The position numbers were made by a program, and so were the translations under genes. A stretch of DNA of 64,000 nt. Origin: Cytophagaceae bacterium (GTDB lineage: Bacteria; Bacteroidota; Bacteroidia; Cytophagales; Flexibacteraceae). The stretch spans positions 1-64,000 of the forward strand of contig JAIXQU010000103.1 in NCBI GenBank assembly GCA_027485575.1, given 5' to 3'. Numbering within the stretch: the first letter of the stretch is position 1; each line of letters begins with the position of its first letter. The notes under the pieces were generated by a model, which saw nothing but the letters and a program-made list of their open reading frames with translations, ran no database searches and was not told the origin of the DNA. Below, one piece after another: positions 13,101 through 15,717 of this stretch.

Positions 13101-13541
13101 CTAGATTTTTGCCTGTTTTTCTCCTTCAGATTTCAGTTCTCCTTCCTGGTATTTGGAAGGACATTTCATTAAAATTTTGTCAGCTACAAATTTTCCTTCC
13201 TTCATTCCCCCAACAACCACAATCTTCTCTGATCGTTCAAAATCTGCTGGTTTTGGGTTGAAATAAAGCACTTCTTTCTTTTCCTTTTTTTCATCCACGA
13301 GAATAAACCGGAATAAATTAGGGTCAACCTGAGGGTCATAAAACATGCCTTCTATTTTACCTGCCGGAGATTTTGGCAATTGTCCAACCACATGAACTTT
13401 CGCACTTTCACCATCCTCTGACATTTCAACCGCTTCTGCAAAGCAAACATAACTGCTTGCATCACCGGAGGTAGATACAATTACAGAAATCGCAACCGCT
13501 ATTACCAGTAAGCCACCAAGGTGCAAAGGTTTAATTTTCAT
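13101..13541 (-). CDS. ccmE: Cytochrome c maturation heme chaperone, CxxxY type
   Basis: A 146-residue CcmE with an N-terminal membrane anchor (residues 8-24) and a periplasmic OB-fold with KVHVVGQLP, KIEGMFYDP, FRFILVDEK and IVVVGGMKEGKFVADKILMKC. Classical CcmE binds heme through a His in a HxxxY motif; here that position is Cys127 with Tyr131 (CPSKY). This is the CxxxY variant known from archaea and some Desulfovibrio-type bacteria. I start at 13541 (MKIKPLHLGG); the longer frame from 13622 would overlap ccmD with unlikely sequence. It lies 13 bp after ccmD in the ccmB-C-D-E run. Confidence 0.85.
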   Translation of the reverse strand: MKIKPLHLGGLLVIAVAISVIVSTSGDASSYVCFAEAVEMSEDGESAKVHVVGQLPKSPAGKIEGMFYDPQVDPNLFRFILVDEKKEKKEVLYFNPKPADFERSEKIVVVGGMKEGKFVADKILMKCPSKYQEGELKSEGEKQAKI

Positions 13542-13554
13542 GATCTTATAAATT

Positions 13555-13773
13555 TTATTTTTCCAGTTTGGAAATTTTTCTTTCCAGAAATACCAAAAAC
13601 AGAAACAACCCAACCAATACAATGAGTACCGTGATTAACACCACATAAATCTTGCCATTTGCCCTCATTTGGTCTGCCATTTCAATTTCACCACCCTGAG
13701 CTTTGGAAACCAGGCTAAATATAAGAGAAACTACCAATCCATAGGAGAACCTTTTAATGAAATCTTTACCCAT
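13555..13773 (-). CDS. ccmD: CcmD-like small membrane protein
   Basis: A 72-residue protein with an N-terminal hydrophobic stretch and a second helix (IYVVLITVLIVLVGLFLFLVF), followed by ERKISKLEK. The MADQMRANGKIYVV segment and the closing RKISKLEK are typical of Bacteroidota CcmD-like proteins, though these share little sequence with the proteobacterial CcmD. The first part may be a cleaved signal peptide (LVSKAQG), leaving a single-pass protein. The role would be in the CcmABCD heme-handling complex that releases holo-CcmE. It overlaps ccmC by 8 bp. Confidence 0.7.
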   Translation of the reverse strand: MGKDFIKRFSYGLVVSLIFSLVSKAQGGEIEMADQMRANGKIYVVLITVLIVLVGLFLFLVFLERKISKLEK

Positions 13774-14434
13774 TTTCTATTCTGTTTTTAACGATTAATT
13801 TATACCTGATTATCAAATCTCCAATCCAAAATCCTGTCAATGTCCAACCGAGAACAGCAGGATAAAAGACAGGCCGCATATATCTTGCCTGGTCATAAGG
13901 ATTGAAACCTGGATTTCCACCATTACCCGGATGTAAAGAGTCTGTAAATCTGGGTAATACATATATCAACGGAATTAATATTGCAAATGCGAAAATGCTG
14001 TAAACAGATGAAATCCTTGCTTTATCTCTATCTGAGCTAAGGCTTCCCCTGAGAAGCAGGTAACCAAAATAAATCATCATTCCAATGGCTGATGCGTTCT
14101 GTTTTGGGTCATTGCTCCAATATTCTCCCCAGGTAAATTTGGCCCAAAGCATTCCGGTTAGCAGTCCCAAAATTCCAAATACAATTCCGATATCCACATA
14201 CGATGCGGCTTTTACGTCGTGCTCGATATTACCAGTTCTCAAATATTGGATTGAAAACCAAACAGAGGCTCCGAATAAAAAAATCATACCAAACCACATG
14301 GGAACATGGAAATAGAGATTTCTTACAGTCTCGTTCAATATGGGTAGCCTGGGCACTTTGCCCATCAGACCCATGTAAACCACATAAACCATGAGCGGAA
14401 TGGTTATCCATTTCCACCATTTTAAAGGGGGCAT
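13766..14434 (-). CDS. ccmC: Heme-handling protein CcmC
   Basis: A 222-residue protein with six membrane helices of the cytochrome c assembly family. NLYFHVPMWFG and DSLHPGNGG hold the two heme-ligating His positions. The periplasmic tryptophan-rich loop is a diverged form (WGEYWSNDPKQNASA) of the WWD motif. CcmC presents heme to CcmE in the periplasm. The family also includes CcmF and ResC, but the short length and the position between ccmB and ccmD support CcmC. It lies 22 bp after ccmB. Confidence 0.9.
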   Translation of the reverse strand: MPPLKWWKWITIPLMVYVVYMGLMGKVPRLPILNETVRNLYFHVPMWFGMIFLFGASVWFSIQYLRTGNIEHDVKAASYVDIGIVFGILGLLTGMLWAKFTWGEYWSNDPKQNASAIGMMIYFGYLLLRGSLSSDRDKARISSVYSIFAFAILIPLIYVLPRFTDSLHPGNGGNPGFNPYDQARYMRPVFYPAVLGWTLTGFWIGDLIIRYKLIVKNRIENG

Positions 14435-14456
14435 ATAGTTTGAATTGTTTTATTAA

Positions 14457-15128
14457 TTAACCACGCCAAAGATAAGGAAATAGGATGAAGCTTAGGGCAA
14501 CCATTATACAATCAAGGCTGGCAAGTGTGGCAATATGTGGTAGGGCCAGATCCCATCCAAGTGAATCTAACGCATTGACTGATAGTTTAATTACAAAAAG
14601 CAAAGTAGGAATAATGAGAGGAAAGCCCAATACTGGCAATAGGGAAGAATTTTTTCCGGCTTTAGCAGAAATGGCTGAAATAAGGGTTAATCCTGCTGCA
14701 AGTCCCAAACAGGCCAATTCAATAGCCACAGCAAACAGGCCTACGTCCTGAACTGGATTTGTAAAAAAGACTGAAAGAAAAAACCAGGCCAGCCATGAAG
14801 TAACATTAAGCATCAAAAAATGATAGATTAATTTACTAACAATCAGTAATTCAGACTTTACAATAAACAAGTAATACCAAAATTGCTTGTCTAGTTCTTT
14901 TGCAAAACTTTTTCCAACCACCTGAAAAGAGGAAAAAAGAACAACCATCCAAAATATGGCATTCCAGACCAAAGGGTTGACTCGTGCCTTCCCGGCGAAA
15001 AAAACCTGATATATTGTAAAACAGGCTGATGCTACAAAAAGGAGAATCGTAGCTGTGAGAATCCTCTGCCGGAATTCAACCTTCAGATCTTTTGAAACCA
15101 GAATATAAAGATGGTGGAGCGACGTCAA
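14457..15128 (-). CDS. ccmB: Heme exporter membrane subunit CcmB
   Basis: A 223-residue membrane protein with six helices. It opens with LVSKDLKVEFRQR, the conserved cytoplasmic N-terminal motif of CcmB, and contains VGKSFAKELDKQ and PLIIPTLLFV, both family marks. It forms the permease part of the CcmAB ABC complex that frees holo-CcmE from CcmC. It is the first gene of the minus-strand ccm run. No ccmA ATPase gene is beside it or elsewhere in the window, so the partner must be encoded elsewhere or replaced. Confidence 0.88.
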   Translation of the reverse strand: MTSLHHLYILVSKDLKVEFRQRILTATILLFVASACFTIYQVFFAGKARVNPLVWNAIFWMVVLFSSFQVVGKSFAKELDKQFWYYLFIVKSELLIVSKLIYHFLMLNVTSWLAWFFLSVFFTNPVQDVGLFAVAIELACLGLAAGLTLISAISAKAGKNSSLLPVLGFPLIIPTLLFVIKLSVNALDSLGWDLALPHIATLASLDCIMVALSFILFPYLWRG

Positions 15129-15256: not shown

Positions 15257-15664
15257 TCAGACAATTTCAAGGCAACTGGCCCATGTTTCCATGTAAAGGA
15301 CCACGTCTTCTTTTTTATTTTTCTCCAAATGGGTTACGCCAGCTTTTTTTAGAACTTCCTCGTTGGTAAGTCTTTCCAAATCAATTAAGTCTCTGGTCGT
15401 TAGCCCATAAGAAGTTAACTCGGATATTAACCAATCCATAGACATCCCACTTGTTGGACAAAAATCCAAAACCTGTTCTGCCCAATCCCCATGTTTTTCC
15501 ATGGCATATCTGTGAATTTCCTCTTTTGATTTTTCAGTGAGTTGTTGGGCAAGGTGCCCACAATTACAACTTCCCATATGGCCCCATTGGTAATTTTCTC
15601 CTTTCAAAATAGAGTCTGCTGCAGAGCGAATGGCGGTAATTAGTTTTTCCTTTGAAGAATTCAT
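15257..15664 (-). CDS. Hypothetical protein with CNCGH motif
   Basis: A 135-residue soluble protein that I do not recognise. It is mostly helical and has a Cys/His-rich stretch GSCNCGHLAQQ followed by a His-containing helix (IHRYAMEKHGDWAEQ) and a later FCPTSGM, which together could bind a metal or cofactor. The start at 15664 (MNSSKEKL) is preferred; an upstream ATG at 15694 adds ten residues. It sits between ssb and ccmB. In some relatives gldE and gldD follow mutY-ssb; they are absent here and this gene occupies that place. Function is unknown. Confidence 0.55.
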   Translation of the reverse strand: MNSSKEKLITAIRSAADSILKGENYQWGHMGSCNCGHLAQQLTEKSKEEIHRYAMEKHGDWAEQVLDFCPTSGMSMDWLISELTSYGLTTRDLIDLERLTNEEVLKKAGVTHLEKNKKEDVVLYMETWASCLEIV

Positions 15665-15717
15665 GTCAACCGGTTTTTGTTTATAACCAACCAAATTAAA
15701 AATGGTTTGTATAAATT

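Follow-up and report, generated by a model that had tools for sequence, protein, structure and literature searches.

A ccmBCDE locus with a Cys-type heme chaperone and an unlinked CcmA-like ATPase in Bacteroidota

The closest described counterparts of the locus reported here belong to System I* of cytochrome c maturation, in which the heme chaperone CcmE carries a cysteine at the position of His130 of the E. coli protein and a tyrosine four residues on, no HxxxY CcmE is found, CcmB, CcmC, CcmD and CcmF are present and CcmH is usually absent. In a 2011 review Cys-type CcmE is attributed to delta-proteobacteria, Chloroflexi and Firmicutes, and the motif CPSKY is given for 25 of 36 such proteins (PMC3601427, section 8). 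According to the same text about one third of the bacteria with Cys-type CcmE keep CcmH (PMC3601427), and the ccm operon of Desulfovibrio required neither CcmH nor CcmG to give holocytochrome in E. coli (PMC3601427, section 8); the string 'bacteroid' is absent from the accessible text of this review. In Methanosarcina the heme attachment needs the CXXXY motif, and the H130C variant of E. coli CcmE is described as binding heme and failing to hand it over (both PMC9084895, accessible part). Thus, a Cys-type chaperone needs matching machinery. For the E. coli System I, Tyr134 of CcmE has been identified as an iron ligand (PMC9616876), and it is debated whether ATP hydrolysis by CcmA flops heme or releases holo-CcmE (PMC10457321). 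Among the papers listed by our literature searches, none stood out as dealing with the CcmE type of Bacteroidota or with the CcmA replacements reported below.

The window, by which we mean the whole stretch of 64,000 nucleotides that was analysed, lies on a contig of 103,959 bases (C99) of a 3.9 Mb draft genome (198 contigs, 100% complete). Between positions 13101 and 15128 the genes ccmB, ccmC, ccmD and ccmE follow each other contiguously in this reading order on the minus strand:

13101..13541, minus strand: ccmE, Cys-type heme chaperone, 146 aa from ATG, with an N-terminal membrane helix and an OB-type domain
13149..13163, minus strand: codons TGT CCT TCC AAA TAC, encoding C127-P-S-K-Y131 of CcmE
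13555..13773, minus strand: ccmD, 72 aa (CcmD_alt, PF20077, 66.9 bits, cut-off 23.5)
13766..14434, minus strand: ccmC, heme-handling permease with P-His1 and P-His2 present (Cytochrom_C_asm, PF01578, 64.7 bits)
14457..15128, minus strand: ccmB, ABC permease partner, TTG start as listed (PF03379, 39.9 bits, cut-off 24.9)

The Pfam matches of CcmB, CcmC, CcmD_alt and CcmE (PF03100, 40.9 bits) are all above cut-off, and the NCBIfam matches for CcmE and CcmC are below theirs. The list of open reading frames puts the start of ccmE at an upstream TTG (13622), the ATG being located at 13541. Upstream of ccmB there is also a 145-aa open reading frame (15257-15694) without a Pfam or NCBIfam match. The initial annotation had described the four genes as adjoining, with neither ccmA nor ccmF nearby, and both observations were borne out by the Pfam matches and by model searches of the whole genome. 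None of the 42 matches to the CcmA model (TIGR01189) in the genome is on C99, and the sole PF01578 match on this contig is CcmC, so that ccmA and ccmF are truly not located beside ccmBCDE.

In order to place the cysteine motif we aligned the CcmE of the window with CcmE from E. coli (NC_000913.3), three sequences from Desulfovibrio and relatives and five from other Bacteroidota. Cys127 falls into the column of His130 and Tyr131 into that of Tyr134, confirming that CPSKY occupies the classical HxxxY position, as had been proposed, and that the cysteine does not sit outside the heme-binding position. The stretch from Cys127 to Tyr131 is unvaried in 19 rows comprising the window and Desulfovibrio-type CcmE. 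A second ccmE of the HxxxY type is not present, as PF03100 matches only the window CcmE across the 3.9 Mb of the genome. An AlphaFold2 model of CcmE was of mediocre quality (mean pLDDT 66.7). Foldseek with this model gave CcmE chains at ranks 1, 2 and 5 with a probability of 1.00 and E-values of only 0.003-0.013, the first two ranks being E. coli and D. vulgaris CcmE, and the protein is thus predicted to contain the OB-type chaperone domain. VIA-align returned only common OB-fold matches with Z around 6, including the CcmE chains 8ce8_E (6.0) and 1lm0 (5.6), and a sequence search of the PDB gave D. vulgaris CcmE as best hit with an E-value of 0.28. An extra cysteine near the start of the soluble domain (SYVCF, around residue 33) is found in the genus of the window and is missing in the other genera of the family.

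The initial annotation had framed the locus as that of a single odd member of the Bacteroidota, which turned out to be too narrow, as the trait is phylum-wide. From an evenly drawn sample of 247 genomes of the phylum, 161 have a PF03100 match and 86 are without CcmE. Scanning of 151 loci, eight of them repeats of genomes already counted, allowed the motif to be read in 143 genomes (134 of the 161 PF03100-positive ones and nine more from the window's own family), and all 143 show CPS[KR]Y and none HxxxY. In a second table, which lists 150 distinct CcmE-like open reading frames of Bacteroidota, 141 carry the motif and the other nine are paralogues without it. At eight loci (L064, L073, L076, L082, L091, L094, L095 and L104) a gene near ccmE encodes a further CcmE-like protein that is shorter and lacks C/HxxxY, and several of these proteins end in a conserved GHVHG...YFHA[ST]Q; in addition, a second PF03100 copy without the heme-binding motif was seen on another contig of one genome (L202 in G072). 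Cys-type CcmE is thus ordinary for Bacteroidota, and System I* itself is already known.

The initial annotation had also assumed that the remaining subunits are encoded elsewhere or replaced. For CcmF and the ATPase the first part was correct, as they were located on the contigs C177 and C194, respectively, and CcmH was not found in the genome. The C177 protein (840 aa) matches the CcmF/NrfE models as well as the Pfam CcmF C-terminal domain. The histidines aligned to H173, H261, H303 and H491 of E. coli CcmF, which by their numbering we take to be P-His1, TM-His1, P-His2 and TM-His2, are all four retained throughout the 81 Bacteroidota rows. These classes of CcmF histidines (P-His, TM-His) are described in the accessible part of PMC10746174. 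The P-His of CcmC are kept in 130/130 and 129/130 rows from Bacteroidota, and apart from the ATPase the pathway is orthodox. CcmF of Bacteroidota is 677-943 aa long in 81 of 85 rows (472-514 aa in the four shorter ones), compared with 647 aa in E. coli and 626-672 aa in the 17 sequences from Desulfovibrio and relatives, the surplus being mainly an insertion of about 190 residues in the last periplasmic domain (e.g. L016:5131-7653 and relatives). The CcmH model (PF03918) gave no match in the own genome and matches in 7 of the 247 phylum genomes, two of them above cut-off. These seven weak matches (L084-L090) lie in open frames of 253-326 aa, mostly from the families f17 and f35. The genome encodes a DsbD-type protein. 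That it also encodes cytochrome clients is suggested by PF13442, a cytochrome c model with seven matches, of which five exceed the cut-off.

The ATPase is encoded by a solo gene (C194:2064-2681, 206 aa) and escapes the curated model. In the own genome TIGR01189 matches 42 ABC stretches, none above the cut-off of 131.6 bits, and the C194 protein reaches 83.9 bits, less than drrA with 93.4 bits. The cut-off is passed in only six of the 247 phylum genomes and by at most four of five CcmE-holding control genomes, so that missing it is no proof of the absence of CcmA. A route to the ATPase was offered by 16 loci of relatives in which an ABC gene directly precedes the ccm genes. Among 20 ABC open reading frames of the own genome, a smaller set than the 42 TIGR01189 stretches, the C194 protein is the best match for 14 of the 16 adjacent ATPases; the one at L185 scores 0.9 bits higher with a different ABC protein of the own genome. 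A maximum-likelihood tree of 54 rows, which were not selected on the switch residue discussed below, contains a clade of 31 rows (support 97/100) that unites the C194 protein, although on a long branch (3.22 changes per column), with 15 of the 16 adjacent ATPases and with solo ATPases from further families. At L093 the ABC gene preceding the ccm genes lies outside this clade and was rejected as CcmA.

A profile built from 20 clade members (A1) gave a best E-value of about 1e-47 or lower in 153 of the 161 CcmE-positive genomes and in none of the 86 CcmE-negative ones, the eight CcmE-positive genomes without a clade-level match being G011, G032, G055, G095, G125, G188, G206 and G249. As the curated CcmA model passes in 6/247 genomes and the clade profile in 153/161 CcmE-positive ones, annotation misses the Bacteroidota ATPase. 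We therefore rejected absence or loss of CcmA, since the clade search recovers the ATPase although the curated model has no match above cut-off. All eleven genomes of the own family have an ATPase match, one of them being without a CcmE match. The gene neighbours at C194, presumably FtsB-like and PurM-like genes, are identical in G001 and G004. In G005 ccmE and the ATPase gene (weaker match, 153.7 bits) are about 841 kb apart on the same contig, and G008 and G010 have the two genes on separate contigs. The GC contents of C194 (0.379) and C177 (0.403) are in keeping with that of the window (0.384). With CcmF on C177 and the ATPase on C194 the core pathway is complete in the genome.

A closer look at the nucleotide site was taken in an alignment that set 84 distinct clade members from Bacteroidota against E. 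coli CcmA, 17 CcmA from Desulfovibrio and relatives and a further 11 ABC proteins encoded in the own genome. The switch column holds Asn in 84/84 Bacteroidota rows and His in all 29 others; in the lid column all 84 have Pro, the 18 classical CcmA have His, and the remainder Gln (9) or Glu (2). A second reading by regular expression gave the same replacements (84/84), a count that refers to distinct open reading frames and not to genomes, with rows cut at 165 bits and all 20 sequences of profile A1 carrying Asn, and outside of which the eight CcmE-positive exceptions could differ. Asn at the switch is also read in each of the 11 own-family genomes, including G005, G006 and G007 with matches of 146-154 bits. 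Thus, the Bacteroidota clade lacks both the lid and the switch histidine of CcmA, while Walker A is retained and the Walker B glutamate and the signature Ser and Gly are present in 84/84. Because of Pro and Asn where CcmA has two histidines, we call the clade CcmA-like, that is to say one that would do the work of CcmA. Six rows, which we take to be LivF-like, read EQN near the switch loop and resemble the Bacteroidota ATPase in this respect. LivF pairs with LivG, and LivG keeps the histidine. E. coli CcmA dimerises with itself, its switch I region ends in TTHQP, and H83 in its lid loop coordinates Mg2+ when ATP is bound (PMC10457321, accessible part). In a homodimer of this kind, as opposed to a pair of different subunits, both nucleotide sites of the CcmA-like ATPase would be affected. 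We rejected the idea that the change is a consequence of the Cys-type chaperone: Desulfovibrio and relatives manage Cys-type CcmE with an ordinary CcmA, which makes the change a trait of the Bacteroidota lineage rather than something that the Cys chemistry demands.

Loss of the switch His to Asn and of the Mg2+-coordinating lid residue to Pro in 84/84 rows would fit an ATP-binding clamp or scaffold without productive hydrolysis, with nucleotide binding or CcmC/CcmF then driving the release of holo-CcmE. We regard this as rather doubtful, since the retained Walker B Glu and signature Ser/Gly are not expected of a dead site and the co-occurrence with CcmE is strict. Judged from these retained residues, the Bacteroidota ATPase probably still cycles ATP with modified catalysis. 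That the C194 protein belongs to an unrelated transporter, with CcmB using another ABC protein or none, might be argued from its score under the curated CcmA cut-off and from the missing linkage to ccmB, here (C194 is a separate contig) and in three checked relatives with longer contigs. It is nevertheless improbable in view of the clade shared with 15 ATPases that are adjacent to the ccm genes in relatives and of the distribution among CcmE-positive and CcmE-negative genomes. Least credible of all, and rejected for this genome, is maturation of the cytochromes by System II (CcsBA) with the ccm genes as relics. The 86 of 247 phylum genomes without CcmE indicate that other routes may operate in the phylum, but PF01578 detects just two proteins here, the window CcmC and CcmF, and no CcsA, and ccmBCDE is intact and conserved.

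Very probably, then, ccmBCDE forms the heme-loading half of a System I* pathway that also includes CcmF from C177 and the CcmA-like ATPase from C194. In the order of steps that we infer, CcmC would hold heme in its tryptophan-rich site between two histidines, and Cys127 of CcmE would accept it through a covalent bond, as in studied relatives and presumably a thioether; by analogy with Tyr134, the axial iron ligand would be Tyr131. CcmB and the C194 ATPase as its putative partner would drive the release of holo-CcmE, from which CcmF would take the heme and attach it to CxxCH apocytochromes, with no recognisable CcmH taking part. More tentatively, and with somewhat less than even confidence, the pathway might be a distinct, gene-scattered System I* in which an ATPase without both histidines leads to altered hydrolysis or to release by binding only, and in which the CcmF insertion may replace CcmH. 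A phylum with an altered CcmA-like nucleotide site but intact CcmB, CcmC and CcmE represents a natural test of the debate on hydrolysis by CcmA. Furthermore, System I* is widened to a major phylum that is not named in the accessible text of the review cited above (PMC3601427).

Compared with the known systems, the own genome shows each of the System I* features given at the outset, including the absence of CcmH, and by sequence the machinery appears to be System I*, a known kind, with an ATPase variant. As in Desulfovibrio, CcmE carries CPSKY, CcmH is not needed and the core is of the CcmABCDEF type. On the other hand, the Desulfovibrio-type ccmA lies beside ccmB (gene order ccmE-ccmF-ccmA-ccmB-ccmC at L311), both histidines are present in 17 of 17 rows, and CcmF is shorter than the mostly 746-943 aa seen in Bacteroidota. 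With the archaeal Ccm of Methanosarcina the locus shares the CXXXY CcmE, the lack of CcmH and ccm genes outside a single operon, whereas archaeal Ccm is without CcmD and the CcmF of M. acetivorans is split in two (PMC9084895, accessible part), CcmD being present and CcmF a single long protein here. E. coli System I has homologous CcmB, CcmC, CcmE and CcmF with the same heme-ligand histidines in CcmC and CcmF, but differs in its His130-type CcmE, the presence of CcmG and CcmH, genes that lie together, and ordinary lid and switch residues in CcmA. What is new in the Bacteroidota pathway is thus the CcmA-like ATPase, relocated and with two residues of its nucleotide site exchanged.
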